A stretch of 24,101 bases of DNA from a virus: positions 1-24,101 of the IMG/VR virus record IMGVR_UViG_3300037674_000588; one strand, given 5' to 3'. Below are positions 3,758 through 22,506 of the stretch, in pieces. Under the pieces are notes generated by a model. It ran no database searches. It saw only the letters and a list, made by a program, of their open reading frames with translations, and had not been told where the DNA came from. Within the stretch, counting starts at the first letter, position 1; each line of letters begins with the position of its first letter. The position numbers were made by a program, and so were the translations under genes.

Positions 3758-3832
3758 GGGGTTGTAGCTCAACGGGAGAGCATCTGCCTTGCACGTAGAA
3801 GGTTGTGAGTTCGAATCTCACCAGCTCCACCA
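3758..3832 (+). tRNA. tRNA-Ala(UGC)
   Basis: A full cloverleaf is visible. The acceptor stem GGGGTTG pairs with CAGCTCC (two wobble pairs). The D arm begins AGCTCAACGGGAGAGC. The anticodon stem TCTGC/GTAGA encloses loop CTTGCAC with anticodon TGC at 3790-3792. The T arm is GTGAG-TTCGAAT-CTCAC, and CCA is encoded at the 3' end. It begins two bases after the helicase stop, so it is co-transcribed and must be cut out by host RNases. Confidence 0.95.
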
Positions 3833-3842
3833 AACTAATAAA

Positions 3843-3918
3843 GGCTCATTAGTTAAGTGGTATATAACACCGCCCTGTCACGGCGGAGTCAGGAGTTCGA
3901 TTCTCCTATGAGCCGCCA
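3843..3918 (+). tRNA. tRNA-Asp(GUC)
   Basis: The acceptor stem GGCTCAT pairs perfectly with ATGAGCC, with discriminator G at 3915 and encoded CCA at 3916-3918. The anticodon stem CCGCC/GGCGG encloses loop CTGTCAC with anticodon GTC at 3877-3879. The T arm is AGGAG-TTCGATT-CTCCT. It follows tRNA-Ala by 10 bases and is probably processed from the same transcript. Confidence 0.96.
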
Positions 3919-3931
3919 ATAGAGAAAAGAA

Positions 3932-4108
3932 ATGGAAATGATAAAAATATTAACAAAACTACTAGTAGTGAAACGAGAGATCACCAGTAGTCAATATGAC
4001 CAACAAGCTATGTTAAATGGAGATGCAGAAACGATCTTAGATGAAGTAATAGAAGCAGTTTCAAATATAGTAGAAAGACGACAACAATATGAGGATGAAT
4101 GTGGCTGA
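3932..4108 (+). CDS. small hypothetical protein, 58 aa
   Basis: The frame opens 13 bases after tRNA-Asp. AGAGAAAAGA upstream is a weak purine-rich ribosome-binding site. The product is largely helical, with a hydrophobic basic N-terminus (MIKILTKLLVVKRE) and an acidic middle (NGDAETILDEVIEAVSNIVERR). I do not recognise it. Its end overlaps the next gene by 20 bases. The compact, coding-like helical sequence between tRNA and gene supports it as real, at moderate certainty. Confidence 0.55.
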   Translation: MEMIKILTKLLVVKREITSSQYDQQAMLNGDAETILDEVIEAVSNIVERRQQYEDECG

Positions 4109-4406
4109 GAAATCAATGAATACATTTGTCTATGCATCAAGCAAAGACATAAATAATGTTAGAGAATATCTAGTAGCACTTACTGAAAAAGAAATAGAAG
4201 ATTACTGTAGAGGTAAACATGAACGTCAACCAGACTTATTACACGAAGAAAAAGAAATAGTAGCATGGTATAATAACCCTACTCCTATTATGGTAGCACA
4301 TCATTTTACATGGGTTGGCAAAGGTAAGAGACCTCCTATGTTAAACATATCAAGACCATTTAAATATGGCGATCCAAAATTATGGAAATGGACACCCAAT
4401 GGCTAA
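4089..4406 (+). CDS. hypothetical protein, about 105 aa
   Basis: Family not recognised. The protein has a helical middle (NNVREYLVALTEKEIEDYCRG), a short aromatic stretch (EIVAWYNNP; AHHFTWVGKGK) and a Pro/Trp-rich tail. ATGs at 4089, 4095 and 4116 are all possible starts, and none has a clear Shine-Dalgarno. It overlaps the preceding small gene by 20 bases and the bL33-like gene by 8 bases (ATGGCTAA), consistent with coupled translation. No catalytic motif or membrane segment is visible. Confidence 0.7.
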   Translation: MRMNVAEKSMNTFVYASSKDINNVREYLVALTEKEIEDYCRGKHERQPDLLHEEKEIVAWYNNPTPIMVAHHFTWVGKGKRPPMLNISRPFKYGDPKLWKWTPNG

Positions 4407-4596
4407 AGGAAAGAAACAAATAGTAAATTTGATTCCAGAAGGGGAATCAAGGGATAGCCATACTTATAGTTATACAGCATATAAAACAGCGAGTATGATT
4501 TCGGAACAAAGAAAACTTAGAATAAGAAAATATAATCCGACCAAAAGAAAACACGAATTTTTTATAGAGGCTAAGTTACCTAGACACACGAAGTGA
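4399..4596 (+). CDS. rpmG: ribosomal protein bL33 homologue (phage-encoded)
   Basis: The 65-residue product starts MAKGKKQIVNL, like bacterial bL33 (MAKxxxxKIxL). Residues about 43-60 (RKYNPTKRKHEFFIEAKL) align with the bL33 C-terminal core RKYDPxxRKHxxYKEAKI. SHTYSYTAYK matches the GHFYVTKKN strand. bL33 is a small protein of the 50S subunit near the E site. The phage version is about ten residues longer than the usual 50-56, with the extra residues around positions 14-35. I chose ATG 4399 because the frame upstream (to 4366) lies inside the previous gene and bL33 proteins begin MAK. It may swap into host ribosomes during infection. Marine viruses are known to carry other ribosomal proteins such as bS21 and bL12. 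Confidence 0.8.
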   Translation: MAKGKKQIVNLIPEGESRDSHTYSYTAYKTASMISEQRKLRIRKYNPTKRKHEFFIEAKLPRHTK

Positions 4597-4859
4597 GAAA
4601 CTGGGTAGCAAAGCATGACAAAAACAAAGGTGGGGCTCATAAGTCCAAGAAGGACTATGACCGCAAAGATAGGAGTGACATGGAGAACGAAGTCAAATAT
4701 TTAGACTTAGAAACACAATTACAAAATTTACAAGATGCTATACACACAGCGAGAGAACTGCAACAGGTTACAAAAGGAGCTACTGCGTGGGCAATGTATC
4801 AAGAAGAAATAGATATACTTAACGAACAAGTGGAGAAACTTAGAGATGACAAAAGTTAA
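4593..4859 (+). CDS. basic N-terminal segment joined to an acidic coiled coil, 88 aa
   Basis: A GTG start overlaps the stop of the bL33 gene (GTGA). Residues 1-28 are very basic (RNWVAKHDKNKGGAHKSKKD) and resemble short RNxVAKHxxK-type phage proteins I know only as hypothetical stand-alone genes. Residues 30-88 are an acidic coiled-coil-like region (LDLETQLQNLQDAIHTA; LNEQVEKLRD). AGGAG at 4671-4675 stands 4 bases before an in-frame ATG at 4680. The coiled-coil half (59 residues, 4680-4859) could therefore also be made alone. Either this is one fusion protein or two in-frame products. Function unknown. RNA or ribosome binding by the basic part is a guess based on charge and on its neighbour. 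Confidence 0.6.
   Translation: MRNWVAKHDKNKGGAHKSKKDYDRKDRSDMENEVKYLDLETQLQNLQDAIHTARELQQVTKGATAWAMYQEEIDILNEQVEKLRDDKS
4671..4682 (+). promoter_or_regulatory. internal ribosome-binding site and ATG
   Basis: AGGAG (4671-4675), four bases, then ATG (4680-4682), in frame with the GTG-started gene at 4593. It is a better initiation signal than the GTG itself. It lies exactly at the border between the basic segment and the coiled-coil region. Confidence 0.5.
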
Positions 4860-5307
4860 AAAAGACAGATTCGAAGACAGGCTGGAGCGACGAATGAAAA
4901 ACTGGAAACAGGAACAGCACGAAAAGAAAATCTTTGGTGACCCAGAGAAAGAAGAAGTTGTATGGAAAATTGTTAAACTGCCCGACGGTGGTGTGGTTAG
5001 AAAACCTTTTAAAAAACAGTATGAAAACGAAGCAGTAAGCTGTGGGGGTGTACCTGAAGGTTTTATATCAGAAAATGAGTTCCAAAGCGAATCTCAAAAA
5101 ATGCAAGACCAGTTAGAGCCAATTTGGACTACAACAGAACATGATGAATCAGATGACCTAGAAGATGCTAAAAGAGTAGTAAAACGAAGTAAAGTTTATG
5201 AGGGTTGGTTTTGGAACGGACACCTTCAGAAATTTGAAAGATGGGAAGAATCTCAAGATAGTATGAAAACGAAAGAATATGAAAGGTGGTTTAATCGTGG
5301 CGGCTGA
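4846..5307 (+). CDS. hypothetical charged protein, 153 aa
   Basis: Not recognised. The sequence is highly charged and begins with a basic helical stretch (DRFEDRLERRMKNWKQEQHEKK). A small strand region follows (EVVWKIVKLPDGGVVRKPF) and then an acidic middle (TTTEHDESDDLED). The tail is rich in Trp and Tyr (YEGWFWNGHLQKFERW). No cysteine cluster, membrane segment or nucleotide-binding motif is seen. It overlaps the gene before it by 14 bases and the gene after it by up to 29, placing it firmly in the operon. Marine phages often carry similar charged proteins with no known role. Confidence 0.75.
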   Translation: MTKVKKDRFEDRLERRMKNWKQEQHEKKIFGDPEKEEVVWKIVKLPDGGVVRKPFKKQYENEAVSCGGVPEGFISENEFQSESQKMQDQLEPIWTTTEHDESDDLEDAKRVVKRSKVYEGWFWNGHLQKFERWEESQDSMKTKEYERWFNRGG

Positions 5308-9171: not shown

Positions 9172-9346
9172 AAAACTAACTAGCAATGGTTTTATAATTT
9201 GGTATTGTAAAATAAATAATAAAGACGAAGGCAGCTTTATGACTAAAGATGAAGCTGAGACATACGCATGGCTAAGAACAACAACTAATGAGAAATTAAA
9301 ACCACCAATGTGGGTCGATAGAAGAGAAAGAGATGAAAGCAGGTAA
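9128..9346 (+). CDS. small hypothetical protein, 72 aa
   Basis: Not recognised. I chose ATG 9128 because GAGG (9118-9121) lies 6 bases ahead. The frame is open further up (ATG 9104) but only within the polymerase gene. The product shows a strand-rich middle (TVHRKLTSNGFIIWYCKINN), a helix (TKDEAETYAWLRTT) and a basic tail. It overlaps the end of the polymerase gene by 44 bases, which is long for this window and makes the true start less certain. The end overlaps the cupin start by 14 bases. Confidence 0.5.
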   Translation: MTTAWASGTRITVHRKLTSNGFIIWYCKINNKDEGSFMTKDEAETYAWLRTTTNEKLKPPMWVDRRERDESR

Positions 9347-9689
9347 AATATGGGGACAAACAGAACTAATCCATGCAAATGGAGTTCTTGAGTTCCACCG
9401 TATAGAGTATAAAGCGGGATATAAATGCTCAGAACATGAACACGAATTTAAATGGAACGGCTTTTTTGTAGAGAGTGGTAAAATGATAGTTCGAGTTTGG
9501 CAAAATGATTATGACTTAGTAGATGAAACATTACTACTTCCAGGTGACTTTACACAAGTTAAGCCAGGTTGTATGCATCAGTTTGAAGGAGTAACAGACG
9601 GTGTTGCTTTTGAATTATACTGGGCAGAGTTTAATCACAATGATATTAAAAGAAGGTCCGTAGGACAAGAGATTATGGATGATACATAA
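9333..9689 (+). CDS. cupin-domain protein, 118 aa
   Basis: This is a small single-domain cupin. Metal ligand candidates are H35 and H37 in SEHEHEFKWNGFFVESGKM and H82 in VKPGCMHQFEG. The turn LLLPGDF separates the two motifs. Small stand-alone cupins act as sugar-phosphate isomerases or epimerases, dioxygenases or binding proteins; the substrate here is unknown. A second, different cupin lies at 10167 and a sugar-type nucleotidyltransferase at 12406, so a role in making a modified sugar is plausible. AGAAGAGAAAGAG gives a reasonable ribosome-binding site. The stop overlaps the next start (TAATG). Confidence 0.8.
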   Translation: MKAGKIWGQTELIHANGVLEFHRIEYKAGYKCSEHEHEFKWNGFFVESGKMIVRVWQNDYDLVDETLLLPGDFTQVKPGCMHQFEGVTDGVAFELYWAEFNHNDIKRRSVGQEIMDDT

Positions 9690-10039
9690 TGGAATTAATA
9701 TTAGTTACCTTGCTAGTAAAGCACTATCTTGCTGATTATATATTTAATCCAGCATATGAGCCTACTAACAAACACATTTATGGGTCTAAAGGAAGTTTAG
9801 CACATTTAGGAATGCACATGGTATTTTGCTTTATAGCATTAGTACCGTTTCTATCCCTAAGTGTAGTTTTTGCCTGTATGTTATTTGATGGTTTTGTACA
9901 TTATCATGAAGATTATGTAAAGACAAAGTACTTATATAAACGTAAGGGCTTATCAGATAGATATAGACGTGCTATCACAGGAATAGATCAATTAGTGCAT
10001 ATGCTAACATATGTAGCAATTTACGCGTGGGTATCATGA
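9689..10039 (+). CDS. DUF3307-family membrane protein
   Basis: The N-terminus (LLVKHYLADYIFNP) matches the DUF3307 signature of a hydrophobic helix with His then (L)AD. Next come a His-containing helix (LAHLGMHMVFCFIALVPF), another hydrophobic stretch (SLSVVFACMLFDGFVHYHED) and the closing DQLVHMLTYVAIYAW. About three to four membrane helices carry conserved His and Asp residues. Function is unknown, although the fixed polar residues inside the membrane look enzymatic. The length of 116 is normal for the family. The start overlaps the cupin stop (TAATG) and the end overlaps the next microprotein (ATGA). Confidence 0.75.
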   Translation: MELILVTLLVKHYLADYIFNPAYEPTNKHIYGSKGSLAHLGMHMVFCFIALVPFLSLSVVFACMLFDGFVHYHEDYVKTKYLYKRKGLSDRYRRAITGIDQLVHMLTYVAIYAWVS

Positions 10040-10170
10040 ATTATAGTATAGAAAAGTTAATGAGACAATTTGAAAAAATTATGAACCATAGGTTTCATAT
10101 TGGCTGGGTATTCTTAGTTTTAGGACTTGGAATAGCCGTGTGTGTATATGCTCTTGCACGGTTAGTGTGA
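10036..10170 (+). CDS. small single-pass membrane protein, 44 aa
   Basis: The start overlaps the DUF3307 stop (ATGA) and the stop overlaps the GTG of the next cupin gene (GTGA). About twenty basic, polar residues (including MRQFEKIMNHRFH) precede one hydrophobic helix (IGWVFLVLGLGIAVCVYALA). It would sit in the inner membrane with the basic end probably in the cytoplasm. No family recognised. It may be a partner of the DUF3307 protein. Confidence 0.65.
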   Translation: MNYSIEKLMRQFEKIMNHRFHIGWVFLVLGLGIAVCVYALARLV

Positions 10171-10538
10171 AGTATAACATAAAAAACGTAGGCGGAAAAA
10201 CCGTCTATGATAATGATACCTATGTAGTTAAGGATAATACTTTTCTTATGGACAGTACGTTAAGTAGTACAAAACTGTACGCTGGTAAAGAAACCAGAGG
10301 ACATAGACACGCAGAACAAGAAGAAGTCTATGTATTTACAAAAGGTAGTGGAGAAATGATTATAGATGGAGATTACTGCGCTAAAAGATTATTAAAAGTA
10401 ACAGAGGGTGACATAGTTTTAGTACATAAAGGATGCCACCATAAAGTGCATAACCCAGCAGTATTTCCAGATCGTAAATGGAAAGGGACACCTTTAGAAT
10501 TTATATGTATTCTTCAAGGAAAAAGAAATGAGAATTGA
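10167..10538 (+). CDS. cupin-domain protein, 123 aa (GTG start)
   Basis: A canonical small cupin. Motif 1 is G-H46-x-H48-x3-E52 (RGHRHAEQEEVYVFTKGSGEM) and motif 2 runs VTEGDIVLVHKGCHHKVHNP with H92 or H95 as the last ligand. This fuller motif set makes metal binding more likely than in the first cupin. I chose GTG 10167 because it overlaps the preceding stop (GTGA). The frame stays open to a GTG at 10140, but that stretch is inside the membrane microprotein. Related phage cupins resemble sugar-phosphate isomerase or dTDP-sugar epimerase folds; the substrate is unknown. Confidence 0.82.
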   Translation: MKYNIKNVGGKTVYDNDTYVVKDNTFLMDSTLSSTKLYAGKETRGHRHAEQEEVYVFTKGSGEMIIDGDYCAKRLLKVTEGDIVLVHKGCHHKVHNPAVFPDRKWKGTPLEFICILQGKRNEN

Positions 10539-11295
10539 TAAATATACACATGAACATAATAGAAAAACAATTGAGGCGTTACCTGATAAAATTAATACTT
10601 ACGTACCGATAAGTGCTGGAGTAGAAAGTACCGCAGCATATCTTTATGCTATTAATGACCCTGATATTCATCCACTTTGTGTTAATTGGTATGACCCACA
10701 ATGGGGCGAAGCTGCAGACGCTATGCTAACATATGGAGAAAGACTGTGTAAACTTTACGATGCTCCATTAGTAGTATGGAACACAGGTAATATTGCAACT
10801 GAAAACGAAGTACCTATAGTTATCAGTGGACTTGCAGCTTGGATGGCAACAGTAGTGGGAAATAAACGATTTAATTGGAAATGGTTTATGGGATCAGGAA
10901 ATGCTGAAGATGATATTAGAATGAGAAATCAGTTTAAAGAATATAGACGAATAATTTCTCAACATTATAGTGATAGTTTAGATGGACATGGATTTAGTAT
11001 AGAAGCGATAATAAAAACGCCTGAAGTAAGATATCCATTTGAATACATGTCTAAATCAGAATTACTAGCGTTTGTAAAACAAACAGACCCAGAGGCTTAT
11101 AAGCTACTCTGGACGTGTGCAACTCCTAAAGGCACATTAAAAGAAGAAGGAGAAATAGTAGGATACGTTCCCTGTCATAATTGTAAAAAATGTGGAGAGT
11201 TCAAAGCTGCGGAAATAAAAGCCATGGAAGCAGTTCATAGAGTAGCAACAGGGAAATCATATAGTAAAAACTTTGGCTGGGAATATAGTAGATGA
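10528..11295 (+). CDS. QueC-like PP-loop ATPase with altered P-loop
   Basis: The 255-residue protein has a PP-loop (N-type ATPase) fold. The strand-loop YVPISAGVESTAAYLYA occupies the place of the SGGxDS loop, but reads S29-A-G-V-E33-S34. Near the C-terminus a Cys group (C197, then C216, C219, C222 in CHNCKKC) is like the zinc site of QueC. KTPEVRYPFEYMSKSELL matches the QueC middle segment. QueC makes preQ0 (7-cyano-7-deazaguanine), the precursor of queuosine and of deazaguanine DNA bases in some phages. No FolE, QueD, QueE or DNA transglycosylase gene is visible in the window, so the enzyme may use a host precursor or a different substrate. AAGGA (10516-10520) serves as ribosome-binding site. 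Confidence 0.65.
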   Translation: MRIDKYTHEHNRKTIEALPDKINTYVPISAGVESTAAYLYAINDPDIHPLCVNWYDPQWGEAADAMLTYGERLCKLYDAPLVVWNTGNIATENEVPIVISGLAAWMATVVGNKRFNWKWFMGSGNAEDDIRMRNQFKEYRRIISQHYSDSLDGHGFSIEAIIKTPEVRYPFEYMSKSELLAFVKQTDPEAYKLLWTCATPKGTLKEEGEIVGYVPCHNCKKCGEFKAAEIKAMEAVHRVATGKSYSKNFGWEYSR

Positions 11296-11900
11296 AATTT
11301 GAAGGGTTCGTAGAGAAAAAGACATTTAGAGTAAGTATGACTGAAGGGATTAGAGAGTCTTTTCAACATTATGAAACTCTATCTAAAGAAGAATATAGAA
11401 AAATATTAGAACAAAGAGTAGAACAATTTGTAGTACAAAATAAACGTATTATAAATCCTATTGATGATAGAGATGTTATATCTCATTTTCATTGTTTTTG
11501 GGAAGGAGAAAAACTCTTAGGAGTTTGTAGATTAGTTCCTCCTTTTACAGAAGAATGGGAAGAAGAAATACAATATCCTATTATTGATAAATGTACAGTA
11601 GTAGATAGACGACTGTCTATGTTTTGTGGTGCTCATGCTATAGATGCACATTGCTTTGAAAATCATTGTCAAGATTTAATTACTCTGTATAGAAGTAGTA
11701 ATTCTATGATGGAAATGTATACAGAAGGACATGAACTTATTAAGCATGGTAAAGAAACATATGGAGTAGGACATGAACTTGAACGATATAGATGGATAGG
11801 AGTAACTGACGATGCATGGGGTTTCCCAAGTTATCGGTGGGTTCATGAAGAACATACACAAGAAGAATGGCTAGAAAGAATAGCTCCAATCTTACATTAA
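11292..11900 (+). CDS. hypothetical protein, 202 aa
   Basis: Not recognised. The start overlaps the stop of the PP-loop gene (ATGA). The protein is acidic and rich in aromatic residues. A segment near residues 62-85 (SHFHCFWEGEKLLGVCRLVPPF) looks like the central strands of a GNAT acyltransferase. The clear acetyl-CoA loop (R/Q-x-x-G-x-G/A) is not visible, so I do not call it one. Several Cys and His residues (C104, C115, and the SMFCGAHAIDAHCFENHC stretch) could bind metal. Coupling to the QueC-like gene suggests a shared pathway. Confidence 0.75.
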   Translation: MKFEGFVEKKTFRVSMTEGIRESFQHYETLSKEEYRKILEQRVEQFVVQNKRIINPIDDRDVISHFHCFWEGEKLLGVCRLVPPFTEEWEEEIQYPIIDKCTVVDRRLSMFCGAHAIDAHCFENHCQDLITLYRSSNSMMEMYTEGHELIKHGKETYGVGHELERYRWIGVTDDAWGFPSYRWVHEEHTQEEWLERIAPILH

Positions 11901-11941
11901 TTCGCAGTAGGCGAAGGCAATTCTTTAGAAGTAGAAGAATT

Positions 11942-12421
11942 ATGGAAGCAGACAGAATACAGTTTCCAGTATTTGTAATACATACAGATAACGTGGAAGA
12001 AATAGATGGCATCTTATGGATAGATGACCAAGTGCTAGACGATAAAAATATGTCTGGCGAAACTTTAGGGGCAAGAAGGTTAGAAACGCCAATGAAAAGT
12101 ATATACCCCCTAAGATATATGATAGATGATATAATAGGCGTTTTAAAACACAGAGGAAAGAATTTTATAGATAGTAGCGGTTATGTATTTACTTACGAAA
12201 AAACCGATACACTACAAATAAAGTATCATAAGATACTAAGAAAGGTAAAGAAAGGCGTATGTGCAGTCGTTTGGTTAAAGGACTGTCCGTTTGCATTTAC
12301 CGAAAAAAGCCCCCCTCCTCCAGAGGTTACATGGGCAGGAGTGTTATATAGAAATGACATTCCTTGGAAAATATATAATTATAGCGATAAGAAAGAAAAA
12401 GATACATGGCGGAAAGTATAA
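11942..12421 (+). CDS. hypothetical protein, 159 aa
   Basis: Not recognised. The frame is open from 11867, but those first 25 residues are an Arg-rich stretch that overlaps the previous gene. ATG 11942, preceded by AGAAG, gives a well-formed N-terminus (MEADRIQFPVFVIHTDN). The product appears alpha/beta, with strands FPVFVIHTD, DGILWIDDQVL and GVCAVVWL, and a run of four prolines (SPPPPE) before a C-terminal strand region. No catalytic motif is identified. It ends 16 bases into the cytidylyltransferase gene, so they are probably co-translated. Confidence 0.7.
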   Translation: MEADRIQFPVFVIHTDNVEEIDGILWIDDQVLDDKNMSGETLGARRLETPMKSIYPLRYMIDDIIGVLKHRGKNFIDSSGYVFTYEKTDTLQIKYHKILRKVKKGVCAVVWLKDCPFAFTEKSPPPPEVTWAGVLYRNDIPWKIYNYSDKKEKDTWRKV

Positions 12422-12822
12422 AATTGACGGGATTTACCTGTGGTGCATTTGATTTGTTACACACAGGACATGTTTTAATGCTAAGAGAAGCTAAAGAGCA
12501 ATGTGACATATTGATAGTAGGATTACAAACAGACCCTAGTATTGATAGGGAAGATAAAGCAAAGCCAACTCAAAGCATATTTGAAAGATGGACACAACTT
12601 GAGTCAATAAAATACATAGATAAAATCATTCCGTATGATTCTGAAGCAAGTCTTATGGAGTTATTAAATAGTATACCTATTGACCTCCGAATTATAGGAG
12701 AGGAATATAAGAAGAAAGAGTTTACTGGAAAGGGTTTACATGAGGTCTATTACAATAATAGACAGCACTCCTTTTCTAGTACAGAACTCAGAGAAAGAAT
12801 AAGAGAAAACAATGGAAAGTGA
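12406..12822 (+). CDS. cytidylyltransferase-family nucleotidyltransferase (TagD/RfaE-like)
   Basis: A 138-residue single-domain nucleotidyltransferase of the HxGH family. The signature FDLLHTGHVLML (H19, H22) sits ten residues after the start strand. QHSFSSTELRERI at about 120-132 occupies the place of the C-terminal RTxGISTT-type motif. Members join CTP (or ATP) to glycerol-3-phosphate or sugar phosphates, making activated precursors for teichoic acid, LPS or capsule-like sugars. Length and motif order fit the TagD type, but substrate cannot be read from this. Similar genes occur in marine T4-like phages. With two cupins and a glycosyltransferase in the window, a sugar-modification route is plausible. 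Confidence 0.88.
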   Translation: MAESIKLTGFTCGAFDLLHTGHVLMLREAKEQCDILIVGLQTDPSIDREDKAKPTQSIFERWTQLESIKYIDKIIPYDSEASLMELLNSIPIDLRIIGEEYKKKEFTGKGLHEVYYNNRQHSFSSTELRERIRENNGK

Positions 12823-12940
12823 AAAAAGACTTAATGTATTGAAATCCGACTGGAATAAGTTTGATTTCTATAGGAAAGGATTCTATCTGTGCTTAGCGTA
12901 CCTCCTGTGGGATTTGTTTCACATATGGGGCTTAATTTAA
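12812..12940 (+). CDS. small hydrophobic protein, 42 aa
   Basis: The ATG overlaps the end of the cytidylyltransferase gene by 11 bases. The N-terminal half is basic and polar (KRLNVLKSDWNKFDFYRKG). The C-terminal half is hydrophobic and aromatic (FYLCLAYLLWDLFHIWGLI), suggesting one membrane-embedded or amphipathic helix. No family recognised. It ends 12 bases before iscU. Confidence 0.5.
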   Translation: MESEKRLNVLKSDWNKFDFYRKGFYLCLAYLLWDLFHIWGLI

Positions 12941-12952
12941 GATAAGGAAAAG

Positions 12953-13345
12953 ATGGCATACAGTAAAGAAGTAGTAGATAGGTTCGAGGGAGTCCTAAAA
13001 AATCCCTTAAAATATAATGTAGGAAGGTTTAATCCAAAAGACGCGGACGTAGCCAGTGGAATGGTTGGAGCTCCCGCATGTGGAGATGTAATGAAACTTG
13101 ATTTAAAAATTAAAGATGAAACAATTAAAGATGTCAAGTTCAAAACCTATGGCTGTGGCTCTGCAATAGCATCATCAACGATGTTTATTGACATGTTAAA
13201 GGGTCTAACGTTAGACGAAGCTAGTCAGATTAAAGATAAAGAAATCGCTGCAGCGTTGAGTTTACCACCTATAAAACTGCATTGTTCTGTTTTGGCAGAA
13301 AGTGCAATAAAGAAAGCAATAGAACATTGGGAAAGTAAAAAATGA
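12953..13345 (+). CDS. iscU: iron-sulfur cluster scaffold IscU
   Basis: This 130-residue protein is close to bacterial IscU along its whole length. IscU holds a nascent [2Fe-2S] cluster delivered by the cysteine desulfurase IscS and passes it on with HscA/HscB. All key residues are present: C43 and D45 in GAPACGDVM, C68 in TYGCGSAIASS, and H110-C111 in LPPIKLHCS. LPPIK matches the LPPVK motif by which the chaperone HscA recognises IscU. A six-residue insertion lies near residues 15-20 compared with the E. coli form. No IscS, IscA or HscA is visible here, so it must work with host partners. Phage enzymes needing Fe-S may benefit. Its close match suggests recent capture from a proteobacterium. 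Confidence 0.95.
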   Translation: MAYSKEVVDRFEGVLKNPLKYNVGRFNPKDADVASGMVGAPACGDVMKLDLKIKDETIKDVKFKTYGCGSAIASSTMFIDMLKGLTLDEASQIKDKEIAAALSLPPIKLHCSVLAESAIKKAIEHWESKK

Positions 13346-13419
13346 GCCCAACCGAAATAGCGGCAGGGTTTTTTATAGTCGTAATGTTTTTTGCTTTCGT
13401 AATAATAATGACTAGATAA
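13342..13419 (+). CDS. tiny membrane protein, 25 aa
   Basis: The ATG overlaps the iscU stop (ATGA) and its own stop overlaps the next start (TAATG). Almost the whole product is one hydrophobic helix (IAAGFFIVVMFFAFVIIM) with a short polar N-terminus and a terminal Arg. The double overlap argues that it is translated. Function unknown. Confidence 0.55.
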   Translation: MSPTEIAAGFFIVVMFFAFVIIMTR

Positions 13420-13631
13420 TGGTTAATAAAGATAGTTCGGCTAGGCTACCTGCTTTGTCGTGGAAGAAAAGAAGAGCTAATCCTGTGCCCGATAACCCCT
13501 GTGGTGAGTGCAAATACTATTATATGATTCATGAAATAACAAATTCACTAAGTGAAGGGTGGTGTCGAGTTGACCCAGAAGCGAAACTCGTACTATCAGA
13601 AGAAACTTGTGAGAAATGGGAAATAAAATAA
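13419..13631 (+). CDS. small four-cysteine protein, 70 aa
   Basis: The start overlaps the preceding microprotein stop (TAATG). Four cysteines are arranged C28-x2-C31, then C49 and C64 (NPCGECKYY ... GWCRVDP ... ETCEKWE), with aromatic residues beside them. This could bind zinc or a small Fe-S cluster. I know similar arrangements only as unnamed phage or bacterial proteins. The basic N-terminus (LSWKKRRANP) suggests nucleic acid contact. Its position one gene from iscU makes Fe-S binding worth testing, but nothing in the sequence proves it. Confidence 0.7.
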   Translation: MVNKDSSARLPALSWKKRRANPVPDNPCGECKYYYMIHEITNSLSEGWCRVDPEAKLVLSEETCEKWEIK

Positions 13632-13640
13632 GGAGGACAC

Positions 13641-13832
13641 ATGCCCTATATAGAACAATGTGGAGTAAACACAATAGAACAACAATTACAACAATGGAAG
13701 GGTGTGATGCATGATCCTAGGATAGATGGATTCAATGGCGCATACTGCAAACAAAAGATACAGAAAGTATTAAAAGCAGCAGAAGAAGCATTAGTAGATG
13801 CTCCCACGTATCATGGAGAGGAAGAATGGTAA
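13641..13832 (+). CDS. small hypothetical protein, 63 aa
   Basis: A perfect Shine-Dalgarno AGGAGG (13631-13636) lies 4 bases before ATG 13641, the strongest ribosome-binding site seen in the window, so high expression is likely. The product is helical (NTIEQQLQQWKGVMHD; KQKIQKVLKAAEEALVDA) with two cysteines. No family recognised. It overlaps the next gene by 7 bases. Confidence 0.7.
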   Translation: MPYIEQCGVNTIEQQLQQWKGVMHDPRIDGFNGAYCKQKIQKVLKAAEEALVDAPTYHGEEEW

Positions 13833-14056
13833 AGTTCGGAGAAAGAACACAAAAAACACAAGATTATAAAATAACAATAGTAGTAAAAGCTGATGTTACA
13901 GAAAAAACAGTAAAAGAATGGTTACCAAGAGCTTTAGAAGAAGGCGAGTTCAAGTATAAAATAATAAAAATTTATAGTACAGATACGACGGCAGTTGATA
14001 GAGATGACCCTGAGTATAAGTATTTAAACGATATAGATAAGTTAGAAAGTATATAA
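13826..14056 (+). CDS. small hypothetical protein, 76 aa
   Basis: Not recognised. It has a strand-helix-strand pattern (YKITIVVKADV; TVKEWLPRALEEGE; YKIIKIYSTD) consistent with a small ferredoxin-like alpha/beta fold. No cysteines or membrane segments are present. It overlaps the gene before by 7 bases and its stop overlaps the asparagine synthase start (TAATG), so it is coupled to that enzyme. Confidence 0.7.
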   Translation: MVKFGERTQKTQDYKITIVVKADVTEKTVKEWLPRALEEGEFKYKIIKIYSTDTTAVDRDDPEYKYLNDIDKLESI

Positions 14057-15570
14057 TGTGTGGATTTGTTGGAACTACAGAGAATGCTCTGGTAAAAGAG
14101 ATGCTCTTAAAGCAAGAACATCGCGGACCCGACGGTAATAGATATTGGCAAAATAGTGACTTTGCTTTTGGACACGCTCTATTAGATATAAATGGAAAGA
14201 CACAGTATCAACCTTATCGTACTAAAAAAGGTAATATAGTATTATTTAATGGCGAAATGTATGATGCTGATATACAGAATGATACAAAATGGCTAGCGGA
14301 AGGGATTGATACTTATGGGCATAAGCTTTTAGAGGCGTGTGATTGGCATGGTTCTATTGCGTGGTATAAGCCCAATACTAATGAACTAGTACTAATGCGA
14401 GATCATTTTGGAACAAAACCTTTATGGTATCGTATGGAAGGAAGAAAATTTGAATTTAGTACAAGTTTAAAAAGTTTTTTACATAAAGAACTTAGACCTA
14501 ATGCTAATAAAGAATTTCATAGAAATCCTCAATGGTTTGGTAATACAACTCCCTATAAGAACATTCAAAAAGTCGCTCCAGGTGAAGTAATAATTTATGA
14601 TACTTTGGATAGAAAAATTAAGAAAAAATTTAATTTCTGGAGTTATTTTAATATAAAATCAGAATCTCTAAACACAGCAGAGTTTAGACACAAAGCAATT
14701 AAAAGTGTAAAAAAAGTTGCTAAAAATATTAATAAGACAGGATTATTTTTAAGTGGTGGTATGGATAGTACATTAATCTTATCACTACTTAAAGATGTTC
14801 CAGAGTTAGACTTGCACGTTTTTAGTTGTGGATATAGTACCGAAAGGGGTAAACATTATACCTATAAAGAAATGGGCGATGAAGCGTACATGGCTAGACG
14901 GACTTGTAAAGAGTATGGAATACCTCTTACAGTAGTAAATTTAGACCAAGCTTCAAGAGAACACTATAGTAAAATGTGGATAGCAAATACACATTATACA
15001 TGGTCGGATAAAAATAGACAAGCTCCAAGATATCTATTAGCAAAGACTGCAGCAGAACATGGTTGTAAAGTAATTTTAACTGGAGATAGTGGAGATGAAC
15101 TTTTTACTGGATATCTTCACCATGCTGAGAGATTCGAAAAGGGGTGGCCTGAGAGAATGACCAAAGATTTAACTAAGAGACCTTGGTTTCCTAGTAGAGC
15201 TTTTGGAGAAGATCATCTTAGTAATAGTTTATTTATTGATTTATTACTAACTTCAGAACAAAATATTCTTGCAACAGATCAGACTTGTGGAATGTTTGGA
15301 ATGGAAAGTAGAATACCCTTTTTAACTCAAAGTTTTGTTAAGTATGTATTAAACATAAAAGGAAGTATAAAATTTAGACAAACTAAAAAGTTTTCTAGAG
15401 GAACAAATAAGTTTCTTGTAAGAGAAGTTATGAGACAGTACCTCCCTGAGCATGTTAGAAATAGAATAAACAAAACGGGGTGGACTAGTCCATGGGATAA
15501 TAATGTACCTGTCTTAAGAAACCAATGGTTAGACCATGATTTAGATTTCATAGAGACACTATCAAGATAA
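14056..15570 (+). CDS. asnB: asparagine synthase (glutamine-hydrolysing) family protein
   Basis: The 504-residue protein has both halves of AsnB. The N-terminal class II glutaminase domain has the nucleophile Cys2 exposed by Met removal (MCGFVG), HRGPDG at 22-27 and FNGEMYD at 64-70. The C-terminal synthetase domain has the PP-loop LSGGMDST near 232-239 and a later TGDSGDELFTGY. AsnB makes asparagine from aspartate, glutamine and ATP. In E. coli AsnB the sequence GHERL carries Arg49, which holds the glutamine substrate. Here the same place reads GHALL, so that Arg is Leu42. The glutaminase may be weakened or the substrate changed (ammonia use, or an amidotransferase acting on another carboxylate, as in sugar or cell-wall modification). 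Start overlaps the previous stop. Confidence 0.9.
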   Translation: MCGFVGTTENALVKEMLLKQEHRGPDGNRYWQNSDFAFGHALLDINGKTQYQPYRTKKGNIVLFNGEMYDADIQNDTKWLAEGIDTYGHKLLEACDWHGSIAWYKPNTNELVLMRDHFGTKPLWYRMEGRKFEFSTSLKSFLHKELRPNANKEFHRNPQWFGNTTPYKNIQKVAPGEVIIYDTLDRKIKKKFNFWSYFNIKSESLNTAEFRHKAIKSVKKVAKNINKTGLFLSGGMDSTLILSLLKDVPELDLHVFSCGYSTERGKHYTYKEMGDEAYMARRTCKEYGIPLTVVNLDQASREHYSKMWIANTHYTWSDKNRQAPRYLLAKTAAEHGCKVILTGDSGDELFTGYLHHAERFEKGWPERMTKDLTKRPWFPSRAFGEDHLSNSLFIDLLLTSEQNILATDQTCGMFGMESRIPFLTQSFVKYVLNIKGSIKFRQTKKFSRGTNKFLVREVMRQYLPEHVRNRINKTGWTSPWDNNVPVLRNQWLDHDLDFIETLSR

Positions 15571-15632
15571 TGGCATATTTAGCATTAATAGCGTTATGTA
15601 TGATATTTGCCTATATAGGAAGTCAACGATGA
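15570..15632 (+). CDS. microprotein, 20 aa, one hydrophobic helix
   Basis: The ATG overlaps the asparagine synthase stop (TAATG) and the stop overlaps ATG 15629 of the helicase gene (ATGA). The product is MAYLALIALCMIFAYIGSQR, a single hydrophobic stretch with a basic end. It may be a real membrane microprotein or only a coupling peptide that lets ribosomes re-start on the helicase gene. Both overlaps are visible; function is unknown. Confidence 0.4.
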   Translation: MAYLALIALCMIFAYIGSQR

Positions 15633-16909
15633 AGGCAGTCTTTAGTAATAGAATACAGATAGAAGGAAATGCTGATATGTTAGCAGTTCTTGAAGAAGAA
15701 CTAACTTATCGGTTACCCCCGCGTATGCCTCAAGACCCTCCTATAATCATAAAAACAATTAGACCTTTAAGAGAAGGAATTGTTTCTATACCAATGGGAA
15801 GAACGGATTTAATCCCAAAGAATTACGATATAGTCGATAAGAGGATTGTTCGTCCAGTTGAATTTCCTGAATTTGCGTTTACTTTACGTGAGAGCCAGCA
15901 GGCGGTCTATGACCGAGTAGTTGACAATACTATAATTAACGCTTGGGTAAGTTGGGGAAAGACAATAACGGCTTTATCCATCGCAAAAAAACTCGGGAAT
16001 AAAACATTGGTTGTTACGCACACGACCAACTTAAGAAATCAGTGGGAAGGCGAAGTAAAAAAAGCATTTGGAATTACACCAGGCAGGATAGGTAGTGGAG
16101 AGTTTAATACTTCAGGTCCTATCACTATTGGGAATATCCAAACTTTGTACCGACGAATGGACGACATAAAACAACGATTCGGTACTGTGATTTTAGATGA
16201 GATGCATCACGTTAGTAGTCCTACTTTTACTAGAATAGTAGATGAAATGCCCGCGAGATATAAGATTGGACTGACAGGAACATTAGAACGAAAAGACGGA
16301 AGACATGTAGTCTTTAGAGATTACTTTGGGAATACAGTACTAAAACCACCCAAAGAGAACTATATGATACCAAAAATTGATATTATTAAGTCAGACATAC
16401 GTTTTCTAGATGGCTCTTATACCCCTTGGGCTGAAAGAGTTAATCATTTAGCTAATAATGAAGAATACGTTCATACGGTATCTATGATTGCAGCAAGATA
16501 CGCTGCTTTAGGACACAAGGTTTTAGTAGTTTCAGATAGAGTAGCATTTCTAAAAGTTTGTGCGAGACTAGTGGGAAACCGAGCTATTTGTATAACAGGG
16601 GATATGCCCTTTGAAGAAAGAGATGTAGCTATGAAACAAATGAAAGGAGATAAAAATATTCTCTTTGGAACTCAATCAATATTCTCAGAAGGAATATCAT
16701 TAGATGATTTAAGCTGTTTAGTATTAGGAACCCCTGTAAACAATGATCCATTACTAACACAATTAATAGGAAGAATAGTACGGGAAAAGGAAGGAAAAAT
16801 CCAACCAACAGTCGTAGATATTCATTTAAAAGGAAAAACCGCCACCAGACAAGCAACTGCTAGAATGGGGTATTATATAAAAGAAGGATATAAAGTAAAA
16901 ATATTATGA
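15629..16909 (+). CDS. SF2 DNA helicase, UvsW/XPB-like
   Basis: The 426-residue superfamily 2 helicase resembles T4 UvsW, which remodels recombination intermediates and stalled forks. Motif I reads AWVSWGKTITAL at about 106-117, so the usual GxGKT is SWGKT. Motif II is ILDEMHHV (DEMH, near 190). Motif III is LTGT (near 215), and motif VI is QLIGRIVRE near 378-386. The N-terminal 90 residues form a small strand-rich domain as in UvsW. I chose ATG 15629 because it overlaps the microprotein stop and begins a good strand (MKAVFSNRIQIEG). The frame is open back to 15596 but only inside that microprotein. It fits functionally with gp46/gp47 and SSB downstream. Confidence 0.9.
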   Translation: MKAVFSNRIQIEGNADMLAVLEEELTYRLPPRMPQDPPIIIKTIRPLREGIVSIPMGRTDLIPKNYDIVDKRIVRPVEFPEFAFTLRESQQAVYDRVVDNTIINAWVSWGKTITALSIAKKLGNKTLVVTHTTNLRNQWEGEVKKAFGITPGRIGSGEFNTSGPITIGNIQTLYRRMDDIKQRFGTVILDEMHHVSSPTFTRIVDEMPARYKIGLTGTLERKDGRHVVFRDYFGNTVLKPPKENYMIPKIDIIKSDIRFLDGSYTPWAERVNHLANNEEYVHTVSMIAARYAALGHKVLVVSDRVAFLKVCARLVGNRAICITGDMPFEERDVAMKQMKGDKNILFGTQSIFSEGISLDDLSCLVLGTPVNNDPLLTQLIGRIVREKEGKIQPTVVDIHLKGKTATRQATARMGYYIKEGYKVKIL

Positions 16910-17820
16910 CAACCCAAGAACCACAAATTCAACAAATTACATTAAACTTACCAGAAATGAGAAAGTTAAAGTTTATGATTGCTACTCCCATGTATGGTGG
17001 TATGTGTCATGGATTGTACACTAAATCAATGATGGATACTATCTCTATGATGACAAGTCATGGAATACCAGCACAACTATATTACATGTTTAATGAATCT
17101 TTAATTACAAGAGCAAGAAACTATTGTGTTGCTAACTTTCTAAAAAGTGATTGCACTCATCTATGGTTTATAGATAGTGATATTGCTTGGAAAGCCCAAG
17201 ATGCGCTATATATGATGCATCTTATAGCAGAAGACCCAGATAAATTAAAAATCTTTACTGCATTATATCCTAAAAAAGTTATTGCTTGGGAAAAGATAGT
17301 AAAGGCTTGCAAATCAGGTCTGTTTGATGAAGAACCAGATAGTCTAGAACAAATTGCAGGAGACATGGTATTTAATCCACATCCTACAGAATACCCTGAC
17401 GGACGGGCTCCTGTATTTGAACCTGTGAGAGTGAAAGAAGCAGGTACAGGTTTTATGTTTATTGAAAGAAGTGTTTTTGAAAAGTATGGAGATAAACACC
17501 CAGAACTTTGGTACACTCCAGACCATTTAAGGGAGGCAGAATTTATGACAGATGAAAGAATTTGTGCTTATTTTGACTGTGTAATTAATGAACAAGATAG
17601 ATATTTAAGTGAGGATTATATGTTTTGTCAAAATGCAGATAAACTAGGGTTTAAAGTATTTACTTTGCCTCATGTAGAACTTATGCATTGCGGAAGCCAT
17701 ATATTTAGTGGAAGTGTACTAAAGATGGCACAACTTGACCTTCACCCTACAATCGACCCAGACCATGCAAAAAAAGTTGCTGAGTCTGCGGGCAAAAAAC
17801 CTCAGAAAAATAGTTCTTGA
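16906..17820 (+). CDS. GT-A fold glycosyltransferase
   Basis: The 304-residue protein begins its fold with FMIATPMYGGMCHGLY, a nucleotide-sugar-binding strand-loop. It continues with NESLITRARN and the DxD motif FIDSDIAW (D90, D92), which binds the metal and nucleotide sugar. Later TGFMFIERSVFEKYG and SEDYMFCQNADKLGF look like the acceptor-side ED region of family 2-like enzymes, and ELMHCGSH supplies a possible metal His. The target could be a host surface glycan, a virion protein or modified DNA bases; the sequence does not decide. The first 20 residues are probably unstructured. Start overlaps the helicase stop (ATGA). The -35 box of promoter P3 overlaps the stop codon. Confidence 0.85.
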   Translation: MTTQEPQIQQITLNLPEMRKLKFMIATPMYGGMCHGLYTKSMMDTISMMTSHGIPAQLYYMFNESLITRARNYCVANFLKSDCTHLWFIDSDIAWKAQDALYMMHLIAEDPDKLKIFTALYPKKVIAWEKIVKACKSGLFDEEPDSLEQIAGDMVFNPHPTEYPDGRAPVFEPVRVKEAGTGFMFIERSVFEKYGDKHPELWYTPDHLREAEFMTDERICAYFDCVINEQDRYLSEDYMFCQNADKLGFKVFTLPHVELMHCGSHIFSGSVLKMAQLDLHPTIDPDHAKKVAESAGKKPQKNSS

Positions 17821-17852
17821 CAAATGGATAATTTTTTGTTATAATATCTATG
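17807..17852 (+). promoter_or_regulatory. P3: consensus sigma70-type promoter, overlapping the glycosyltransferase stop
   Basis: TTGACA (17817-17822) and TATAAT (17840-17845) are perfect and 17 bases apart. The extended 17-mer AAAATAGTTCTTGACAA (17807-17823) is identical to P2. The expected transcription start, near 17850-17852, falls on the ATG of the next gene. It would drive the SSB, peroxiredoxin and gp47/gp46 operon. Confidence 0.92.
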
Positions 17853-18263
17853 ATATTTTATAATTGGGAAAAGATTTTAAGGTCTAGCAACGGAAAAGTC
17901 ATAGACATTGTAGCTATACTTAGAATAATAACATACAAGATAACCCCAAAAAACTATCACGATAGAACTTTTAAATTCTATCAACAAAACTACGGTGGCT
18001 TTAGTTTTCTACTTAATGCAGAAGACTTACTCACCAAAGGACGTACTTATAGTGACAAAGAAGTTTGCGAATATGCAGGTGTCGCGTCATTTCGCAGCTA
18101 CCATGAGTACAAACAATCAGGAGACACTACATTAGACCTCCTGTACCTTCCGGTATCGGAGGACATTATTAATAACAACAGACTGCTCGAATTGAGAGGG
18201 GATAAAATTCACTTCTTATTTGAGGAGACACAATCGGAGAAAAACGATGGCTATAGGCTTTAA
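17850..18263 (+). CDS. hypothetical protein, 137 aa, first gene of the P3 operon
   Basis: Not recognised. The product is alpha-rich (EKILRSSNGKVIDIVAILRII), with aromatic middle residues (FKFYQQNYGGFSFLLNAEDLL) and a final strand region. The start is unusually well fixed. A TAA at 17829-17831 closes the frame upstream, and no ATG, GTG or TTG follows for over 60 codons. ATG 17850 lies only 5 bases after the -10 box, so the mRNA would be leaderless. It overlaps the SSB gene by 17 bases. Its place suggests a replication or recombination role, such as a helicase loader or SSB partner, but no motif shows this. Confidence 0.78.
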   Translation: MIFYNWEKILRSSNGKVIDIVAILRIITYKITPKNYHDRTFKFYQQNYGGFSFLLNAEDLLTKGRTYSDKEVCEYAGVASFRSYHEYKQSGDTTLDLLYLPVSEDIINNNRLLELRGDKIHFLFEETQSEKNDGYRL

Positions 18264-18876
18264 CACAACAAAGGGCTCTGCCCAAAAAAACAAAATTGAA
18301 ACATACAATTTTTCAAACAGAGAAGACCACCACTTAAGAATAGTAGGTGACCTTCTTCCTCGTTATGTGTACTGGATAAAAGGCGAAAACAATAAAAATA
18401 TTCCCATGGAATGTTTGTCTTTTGACAGAAATAGCGAGACCTTTAACAATGTCGAACATGATCATGTTCGAGATTTTTACCCTGATCTAAAATGCGGCTG
18501 GGCTTATGCAGCTCAATGCATTGACTACGGCGATAAATCAATGAAAGTTTTAAATTTAAAAAGAAAACTCTTTGACCAAATCTTAGTAGCCATGGAAGAT
18601 TTAGGTGACCCTACTGATTACACAGCGGGTTGGGATATTTTCTTTAAAAGAATCAAGACTGGACCTCAGGTGTTTAATGTTGAGTACCAATTACAAGTAC
18701 TTAAATGCAAACCAAGAGCGTTAGAAGATTGGGAACAAGAATTAGTTGCCGAACTTAAGTCAATGGATGACGTCTTACCAAGACCTACTCCAGACGCTCA
18801 GTTAGAACTTTTAAAAAGAGTGCAAAACTCTCAAAATGCTACTGAAGAAGTATCGAATGAATTTGATATAAAATGA
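18247..18876 (+). CDS. single-stranded DNA-binding protein, gp32-like (probable)
   Basis: The 209-residue product fits the phage gp32-type SSB in layout. A basic N-terminus (MAIGFNTTKGSAQKNK) is followed by an aromatic and charged core (LRIVGDLLPRYVYWIKGENNK). Then comes DPTDYTAGWDIFFKRIKTGPQVFNVEYQLQVLKC, a pattern seen in phage SSB cores (repeat of strand, Gly and NVEY). The C-terminus is a flexible helix and linker. The gp32 zinc site is not clear. I chose ATG 18247 because GGAGA (18236-18240) lies 6 bases ahead; the frame from 18220 is inside the previous gene. It would coat ssDNA and organise helicase, polymerase and recombination proteins. The gene contains a perfect 20-base palindrome at 18452-18471. 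Confidence 0.6.
   Translation: MAIGFNTTKGSAQKNKIETYNFSNREDHHLRIVGDLLPRYVYWIKGENNKNIPMECLSFDRNSETFNNVEHDHVRDFYPDLKCGWAYAAQCIDYGDKSMKVLNLKRKLFDQILVAMEDLGDPTDYTAGWDIFFKRIKTGPQVFNVEYQLQVLKCKPRALEDWEQELVAELKSMDDVLPRPTPDAQLELLKRVQNSQNATEEVSNEFDIK
18452..18471. repeat. perfect 20-bp palindrome inside the SSB-like gene
   Basis: TCGAACATGATCATGTTCGA reads the same on both strands with no mismatch or spacer. It encodes part of the segment NVEHDHVRD. A random 20-bp perfect palindrome is expected about once in a million positions. The inner GAAC-N8-GTTC arrangement looks like a binding site for a dimeric regulator, but no known regulator has been matched to it. Confidence 0.95.
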
Positions 18877-19382
18877 TTGGCGTAGGCGAAGAGTTCCCTG
18901 AATTTTATATGCAGGCAGTTAATCAGGAAAATGAAATAATTGACTTTGACTATGAAGATTTATACAATCAATGGTCAATTATTTACTTTTATCCAAAAGA
19001 CTTTACCTTCATATGCCCTACAGAAATTCAAGGATTCGATAACTTAGTAGGGATAGTAGATAATGTTGTCGGAATTAGTCCTGATAACGAATATTGTAAA
19101 CTTGCGTGGAAACAGGATAACGAAATGATTAGTGATATTAGTCATATCCTTGCAGCAGATTCTGGTAATGAATTAGCAAATATTCTTGGAATAGTCTCAA
19201 ACGAGAACGTTCCTTATAGAGCTACTTTTATTATAGATACAGATAATGTTATTCAACATGTATCAGTTAATGCGCTACATACAGGTAGAAGTCATGAAGA
19301 ACTTTACAGAACTGTAGAGGCTCTTAAAGCTGACGGACTAACAGGATGTAACTGGCAAGCAGGAGACGATTACGTAGCATGA
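18873..19382 (+). CDS. 2-Cys peroxiredoxin (AhpC/Prx1 type)
   Basis: This thiol peroxidase reduces hydrogen peroxide and organic peroxides. The 169-residue sequence has the peroxidatic site FTFICPTEI (T45, C48, P49), the supporting Arg (R116 in YRATFIID) and a C-terminal resolving Cys (C159) in GLTGCNWQAGDDYV. The whole chain from FPEF to DDYV matches the AhpC-type family, a little shorter than the usual 187. It would need a host thioredoxin or AhpF for recycling. It is coupled to the SSB gene upstream and to gp47 downstream by ATGA overlaps. A phage peroxidase could protect DNA replication or the infected cell from oxidative stress. Confidence 0.93.
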   Translation: MIGVGEEFPEFYMQAVNQENEIIDFDYEDLYNQWSIIYFYPKDFTFICPTEIQGFDNLVGIVDNVVGISPDNEYCKLAWKQDNEMISDISHILAADSGNELANILGIVSNENVPYRATFIIDTDNVIQHVSVNALHTGRSHEELYRTVEALKADGLTGCNWQAGDDYVA

Positions 19383-20329
19383 TCTTATTTACAGCAGACT
19401 GGCACTTAAAGCTAGGGCAGAAAAATGTCCCTATGGCTTGGGCTTGTTCGCGCTATAAATTATTTTTTGAACAGATAAAGCAGTTAGAAAGTGACTGCAG
19501 TTTGCATATCATAGGCGGGGACTTGTTTGATCGAGTTCCCTCTATGGATGAGATAACTTTATACTTTGACTTTATTAGTGGTATAACGATACCAACTATA
19601 ATTTATGACGGAAATCATGAAGCAACTAGAAAAAATAAAACATTCTTCTCTAATCTTAAGAGAGCAACGAATGAATTAAATCCTTTAGTTGAAATCGTTG
19701 ATAAGACTACTGAGTATGGAGACTATGCTATACTTCCTTATGCAGATTTGCATAGAAAAAGAAGTATAGAAATGATTAAAGCTCCAATATTATTTACACA
19801 TGTTCGTGGAGAGATACCACCCCATGTAATGCCCGAAGTAGACTTAGATAGATTTAATAAATTTGATACTGTTTTTGCTGGTGATTTACACGCGCATAAC
19901 AATACTCAAAGAAACATAGTCTATCCAGGCAGTCCAATGACGACTTCTTTTCATAGAAATCAAGTCCAAACGGGTGCCTTACTAATTGATGAATCTGACT
20001 GGAGTTGGGAATGGCATGAATTCAAGTTACCCCAACTTATCCGAAAGACAGTAGATAACCCTGATGATATGGTACAAACACCATATAATCATACAATTTA
20101 CGAGATTGAAGGAGATGTTCAAGATTTAGCCTTAGTAAAAAATTCAGAATTGTTAGACAAGAAAGTAGTAAAACGACAAGTGGAAGCACGACTAAATTTA
20201 ACTGCTGAGATGACAATTTCTGACGAACTAGTACTATATCTACAAGATATATTACAATTAGATGATGATAAAATTAGAACTATTATAGGAGTATTTAGTG
20301 ATTATTCTACAGAAGTTGAAATGGGATAA
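19379..20329 (+). CDS. recombination nuclease subunit, gp47/SbcD/Mre11 family
   Basis: The 316-residue calcineurin-like phosphoesterase has all metal-binding motifs. They are D7 and H9 in FTADWHLK, GGDLFDR (D48), GNHE (N79, H80), THVRGE (H141) and GDLHAH (H171, H173), followed by YPGSP. In T4 the gp46/gp47 complex trims DNA ends, makes 3' tails for recombination-dependent replication and helps degrade host DNA. The start overlaps the peroxiredoxin stop (ATGA). The C-terminal end overlaps gp46 by 32 bases. Confidence 0.93.
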   Translation: MILFTADWHLKLGQKNVPMAWACSRYKLFFEQIKQLESDCSLHIIGGDLFDRVPSMDEITLYFDFISGITIPTIIYDGNHEATRKNKTFFSNLKRATNELNPLVEIVDKTTEYGDYAILPYADLHRKRSIEMIKAPILFTHVRGEIPPHVMPEVDLDRFNKFDTVFAGDLHAHNNTQRNIVYPGSPMTTSFHRNQVQTGALLIDESDWSWEWHEFKLPQLIRKTVDNPDDMVQTPYNHTIYEIEGDVQDLALVKNSELLDKKVVKRQVEARLNLTAEMTISDELVLYLQDILQLDDDKIRTIIGVFSDYSTEVEMG

Positions 20330-22115: not shown

Positions 22116-22282
22116 AAGATGGAGATACCTTTTGGTATCATGAGTGCCCACAGATGGCATACCCACGATACATACCAGTAGGAGAGAAGTGCCCAGCCTG
22201 TGCATTTGCAGCTCTCCCGCTAATAGATAAAGCAAAAATTAGGCAAAGCGAATATTTAAACGAAATTGAAGGAACAGAATAA
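22112..22282 (+). CDS. small zinc-ribbon-like protein, 56 aa
   Basis: Start and stop overlap the neighbours (ATGA with gp46, TAATG with ACP), supporting translation. It has Cys12, Cys27 and Cys30 (CPACAF) and a His10-x-Cys12 pair (YHECP). Together these could form a His/Cys zinc site. The rest is a helix ([20 protein letters not shown]). Not recognised. Confidence 0.6.
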
Positions 22283-22506
22283 TGGAAGAACAATTAAAAA
22301 AAATTATATCAATGCATTTAGGAATGGATCACGCAGATATTAACAATAATATGTCATTTATAGATGACTTAGGCGCGGATTCTCTAGATACAGTAGAATT
22401 AGTGATGATGATAGAAGAAGAGTTTGAGTGCGAAATACCAGATGAGGTAGCCGAAAACTTACACACAGTTCAAGATATGCTGGACTACTTGGAAAAAAGT
22501 GGTTAA
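22282..22506 (+). CDS. acpP: acyl carrier protein
   Basis: The 74-residue product aligns along nearly all of bacterial Acp[21 protein letters not shown] has Ser34 in the DSL motif, the place where host phosphopantetheinyl transferase adds the prosthetic arm. The later [20 protein letters not shown] also matches. ACP carries acyl chains in fatty acid, lipid A or other acyl synthesis. No acyltransferase or ketosynthase is visible nearby, so it must act through host enzymes or bind a host partner such as SpoT or MukB. It sits between recombination genes and a nuclease; the stop overlaps the next gene by 8 bases. Confidence 0.95.

Follow-up and report, generated by a model that had tools for sequence, protein, structure and literature searches.

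A SAR86-type ribosomal protein bL33 gene on a marine T5-like phage contig

Virus-encoded bL33 has been described on more than ten contigs of uncultivated aquatic viruses (Mizuno et al. 2019, PMC6375957), and a cyanophage bL33 was reported in 2026 in the jumbo cyanophage PhiMa05 (PMC13157829). In the ribosome, bL33 contacts the E-site tRNA and is among the loosely bound, exchangeable ribosomal proteins; the viral proteins bS21 and bL12 become incorporated into E. coli ribosomes (PMC6375957). The window analysed here, i.e. the whole stretch of 24,101 nucleotides, corresponds to a virus record of 24.1 kb that may be a fragment (IMG/VR record IMGVR_UViG_3300037674_000588), and contains a bL33 gene. 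As in the study of Mizuno et al. 2019 (PMC6375957), in which the gene was almost only aquatic and at least two host-virus transfers were found, bL33 is located on a phage contig; unlike in that study, the present copy belongs to a T5-like lineage and is linked by two genes to SAR86, and an overlap with their contigs is possible. The PhiMa05 gene (PMC13157829) is likewise phage-carried with a tRNA gene in its neighbourhood, but it is one of six ribosomal proteins of a jumbo cyanophage and has Vampirovibrionia affinity, whereas the present one is the single ribosomal protein noticed in a 24-kb fragment. The pelagiphage bS21 (PMC6375957) is also a single exchangeable ribosomal protein in a marine phage; it differs in being a small-subunit protein with experimental evidence of incorporation, whereas the present bL33 is known from its sequence and predicted fold. 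Phage bL33 is already described as a kind of gene, and what the present case adds is an explanation of the insert, two genes that link the phage to SAR86 and a picture of where bL33 is located in T5-like phages.

The bL33 gene (Table 1) starts with ATG, which overlaps the stop codon of the preceding ORF, ends with TGA and encodes MAKGKKQIVNLIPEGESRDSHTYSYTAYKTASMISEQRKLRIRKYNPTKRKHEFFIEAKLPRHTK. The protein has no cysteine; the CxxC pairs of the zinc-binding (C-plus) type are absent and it belongs to the C-minus type. A first-pass annotation, made from the DNA alone, had assigned this ORF to bL33 and had proposed a profile search as a check. The NCBIfam equivalog model TIGR01023 (rpmG_bact) was narrowly passed, with 24.3 bits for a cut-off of 23.95 (E = 3e-5, protein residues 1-59 on model positions 1-54 of 56), whereas the score with Pfam PF00471 was narrowly below the cut-off (23 versus 25 bits, E = 1e-4). 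Such a low Pfam score is normal for bL33 of this type, since the chromosomal bL33 of eight SAR86 genomes scored 17-27 bits. When a profile of six phage copies and the phage-like L015 sequence was searched against the PDB sequences, the top matches were the bL33 of solved ribosomes (E = 6.6e-6), and the E-value reached 2.4e-7 once SAR86 and SAR11 rows had joined the profile. HHalign against 13 canonical bL33 gave a probability of 96.9% (E = 1.3e-10), and of the 14 positions that do not vary in canonical bL33, reading of this alignment showed 10 to be retained. The ORF is not a chance ORF.

The structure of the window bL33 was predicted by AlphaFold2 from an alignment of 34 sequences, with a mean pLDDT of 82 and a pTM of 0.62; a previous prediction based on 7 sequences had been of low quality (pLDDT 60). 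In a Foldseek search of the PDB, nearly all the top matches were bL33 chains with a probability of 1.00 and a best E-value of 0.0045, all E-values being at least 0.001 as is usual with so short a chain. VIA-align with the bL33 chains of solved ribosomes gave Z scores of 5.3-7.0 over 44-55 residues, and no significant bL33 match was found in the BFVD structure search. The predicted fold is that of bL33 and, together with the TIGR01023 and HHalign results, upholds the initial assignment.

The first-pass annotation had also described an inserted loop of about ten residues, considered as phage-specific and as a possible sign of altered or phage-marked ribosomes. Extra residues are present, but HHalign against canonical bL33 split them into four residues at positions 13-16 (PEGE, in the first turn), two internal residues at about 36-37 and a five-residue C-terminal tail past position 60, which ruled out a single ten-residue loop. 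Furthermore, an alignment of phage, SAR86 and SAR11 sequences revealed all these extras in SAR86 chromosomal bL33, namely the PEGE turn with SRDSHTYHY, the internal two residues and a -KLPPHSK tail, so the idea of a phage-specific insert had to be abandoned. Being the normal SAR86 form, the extras give no reason to suspect altered or marked ribosomes; their presence in SAR86 bL33 indicates instead a match to the ribosome of the likely host. The SAR86 proteins (e.g. CP097968.1 and CP097973.1) are alike in length class, PEGE turn, internal residues and LPxH tail, with 55-66% identity to the window bL33; the phage copy differs in having LPRHTK where SAR86 has LPPHSK and FF where SAR86 has WF, and in sitting among phage genes. 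Before an unusual insert in a phage homologue is taken for a phage-specific trait, a comparison with the likely host should be made.

The SAR86-type protein is the only convincing bL33 in each of eight SAR86 genomes, two of them complete chromosomes, and the same form is the only convincing one in 12 SAR86 and SAR11 genomes, in which three further matches were weak and stop-interrupted. Among 369 gammaproteobacterial genomes sampled, the profile gave more than 120 bits in three only, namely the named SAR86 genome G001 and two genomes with the SAR86-type sequence (G043 and G295), and the next highest score was 37. In 289 alphaproteobacterial genomes, SAR11-type sequences gave 66-92 bits, a few others 49-60 and the remainder at most 36. 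As the profile contained SAR86 and SAR11 rows, the scores show where this form occurs and are no independent test of homology. SAR11 bL33 is 49-52% identical to the window protein and has part of the turn and the tail in common. None of the papers in the collection searched mentioned SAR86 and bL33 together.

The genes around bL33 include T5-type replication families, i.e. a D5-like regulator, an NAD ligase, a DnaB helicase and a PolA that is about 45% identical over its full length to the PolA of T5-like phages. By this gene content the window belongs to a T5-like phage, and the first-pass annotation was right in regarding the gene as phage-encoded. A tblastn search of 50,697 phage records gave no match to the phage bL33, and no cultivated relative was found. 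A second gene of the window, coding for an IscU-type scaffold, also resembles SAR86: its best nine matches among 40 genomes all came from SAR86 or SAR86-type genomes (62-71%), and its six-residue insertion was present in the four SAR86 or SAR86-type genomes aligned and absent from the four other gammaproteobacteria. These 40 genomes were hand-chosen with SAR86 over-represented, which makes the support good without being decisive. As bL33 and the IscU insertion are both SAR86-like, the host is probably SAR86, and the two genes provide a testable link to this abundant marine group, for which, according to a 2012 paper (PMC3474794), no infecting phage had been reported. Other comparisons added nothing to this link. 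The best match of the phage tRNAs was 80% in one SAR86 genome with comparable scores elsewhere, hence no clear host signal; the tetranucleotide composition was nearer to SAR86 and SAR11 than to other groups, with SAR86 and SAR11 not separating; and the peroxiredoxin matched none of eight SAR86 genomes at 1e-5.

Table 1. Coordinates of the features in the window.
Feature	Position	Strand	Remarks
tRNA-Ala (TGC)	3758..3832	+	upstream of bL33; 100% identical in L025, 86% in L029
tRNA-Asp (GTC)	3843..3918	+	upstream of bL33; 100% identical in lineage A phage L020
58-aa ORF	3932..4108	+	between the tRNAs and bL33
105-aa ORF	4089..4406	+	between the 58-aa ORF and bL33; start possibly GTG 4101; stop overlaps bL33 start
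bL33 (rpmG-like) gene	4399..4596	+	65 aa, C-minus type; SAR86-type with PEGE turn and LPRHTK tail; from profiles, fold and relatives
88-aa ORF	4593..4859	+	basic N-terminus; PHROG 4586; DUF7230-like below cut-off
153-aa ORF, function unknown	4846..5307	+	relative downstream of bL33 in group C phage L025
Cupin-like	9333-9689		listed with the host-like genes
DUF3307	9689-10039		listed with the host-like genes
Cytidylyltransferase	12406-12822		host-like metabolic gene
IscU-type (NifU_N) iron-sulphur scaffold	12953..13345	+	six-residue insertion as in SAR86; host marker outside the bL33 system
Asparagine synthase	14056-15570		host-like metabolic gene
AhpC/TSA peroxiredoxin	18873-19382		host-like metabolic gene
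Acyl carrier protein	22282-22506		host-like metabolic gene

In addition to the copy in the window, IMG/VR contained fifteen relatives with identities of 48-100%, and a profile search of the same resource returned 152 bL33 relatives, of which 80 were kept. By gene content, these relatives belong to different phage types, among them two T5-like lineages, a group having lysozyme and HSP20, and T4-like phages recognised by gp17- and gp32-type genes. In lineage A, to which the window belongs, bL33 is located between DnaB and primase, and in T5-like lineage B between asnB and a D10-type helicase. The DnaB-primase interval was covered in 59 T5-like contigs and contained bL33 in 2 of them, both of lineage A; the other 57 had none in this interval or in the rest of the available stretch, these being fragments of genomes that may carry the gene elsewhere. 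On the evidence of these contigs, bL33 is dispensable for the T5-like phage type, since most of the relatives examined are without it at this locus. Comparison of the T5-like copies gave dN/dS values of about 0.08-0.35 with appreciable synonymous divergence (three methods, with some failures due to so few codons); judged from these codon comparisons, purifying selection acts on the gene, which is conserved among related phages.

The tRNA-Ala adjoining bL33 is identical in the window and in L025, a group C phage that is otherwise different; L029, too, has a tRNA-Ala near bL33, together with the basic motif of the next gene. These cases, together three and hence few, suggest that a small tRNA-bL33 segment may have been exchanged between phages. 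The L015 contig (1-9643) is phage-like and carries SNase, a cell wall hydrolase, the TRAP transporter DctQ/DctM, a permuted-type tmRNA and a diverged bL33 of this form; DctM and the tmRNA had made a bacterial contig conceivable, but a phage is likelier, as the SNase and cell-wall hydrolase genes are common to other phage contigs.

Replacement or topping-up of the host protein is the simplest reading of the gene, because the phage copy matches the form of the likely host. We consider it likely that this marine phage of T5-like type, with SAR86 as its most likely host, carries a working bL33 of SAR86 type that stands in for host bL33 on the 50S subunit during infection. The phage bL33 would be synthesised, probably along with the phage tRNAs whose genes lie just upstream, and would displace the host protein on the 50S subunit near the E site; we infer that ribosomes would in this way be kept complete, or slightly tuned, during the shut-off of host genes. 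If the protein enters SAR86-type ribosomes, the E-site region of the large subunit would join the places where phages supply ribosome parts. The phage copy may have specialised or acquired a tuned function, since 34-45% of its positions differ from SAR86 bL33. It could even act as a modifier and not as a stand-in, altering the handling of E-site tRNA in favour of phage mRNAs. An identity of just 55-66% to SAR86 bL33, the location of the gene beside phage tRNAs in several phage types and the effect of viral bS21, which cut in vitro translation to about 5% (PMC6375957), are compatible with such a specialised ribosome. We nevertheless regard it as unlikely, as the seemingly special features are those of the host and no residue change was identified that separates all the phage copies from SAR86.

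Many ribosomal proteins have second roles, and the RNA-binding fold of bL33 could be used outside the ribosome, for example on phage or host RNA; nothing direct points to this, and the retention of the bL33 core residues and fold makes it very improbable. That the gene is a chance pick-up from a host and useless to the phage is scarcely credible: its patchy presence among T5-like phages and its two different positions would agree with a passenger, but not its low dN/dS over appreciable synonymous divergence or its occurrence in several different phage types.

In a tree of bL33 sequences, the phage and SAR86 proteins formed one clade (support 100/100) with the SAR11-type sequences next to it; this tree was built on 66 columns and its inner order is weak and poorly resolved. 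AU tests rejected neither a monophyletic SAR86 (p = 0.481) nor monophyletic phages (p = 0.657) nor a plain gammaproteobacterial placement of the phage and SAR86 clade (p = 0.195). The SAR86 link of bL33 is firm as a similarity of sequences, whereas the direction and number of transfers are not settled by the tree and the AU tests. SAR86 and SAR11, which belong to different classes, have a similar bL33 turn and LPPHSK tail, unlike most bL33 sampled (L093, L107 and L145, near 5001). Horizontal transfer of this form between SAR86 and SAR11 is possible. It is also conceivable, though improbable in our opinion, that SAR86 received its chromosomal bL33, newly or in place of an older one, from a pool of this form carried by phages and passed among phage types along with tRNA genes, with links to the SAR11 form; if true, phages would have been the route by which an abundant ocean bacterium acquired a core ribosomal protein.

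In the relatives L018 and L020, the stop of the 58-aa ORF directly overlaps the bL33 start. The 105-aa ORF, which separates the two genes in the window, had no match in L018 and L020, and a relative of it was found near bL33 in group C phages. At either junction a stop and a start overlap briefly around TGGCT; in view of these overlaps and of its absence from L018 and L020, the ORF looks like a clean gene insertion. Downstream of bL33, the very basic start pointed out for the next gene, for which an action on ribosomes had been suggested, is indeed present (MRNWVAKHDKNKGGAHKSKKDYDRKDR, at the beginning of the 88-aa ORF) and is the one part of this suggestion that was confirmed; the ORF matches phage families of unknown function. 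Farther away, many host-like metabolic genes are found on this phage fragment (window 9333-22506). Among the relatives, HSP20 immediately precedes bL33 in one phage group and in others lies at a greater distance on the downstream side; the HSP20 loci are at about 7470-7945 in L031, L036, L040, L046 and L049 and at 10752-11183 in L023, those of L036 and L023 being confirmed by Pfam and the others identified by similarity.
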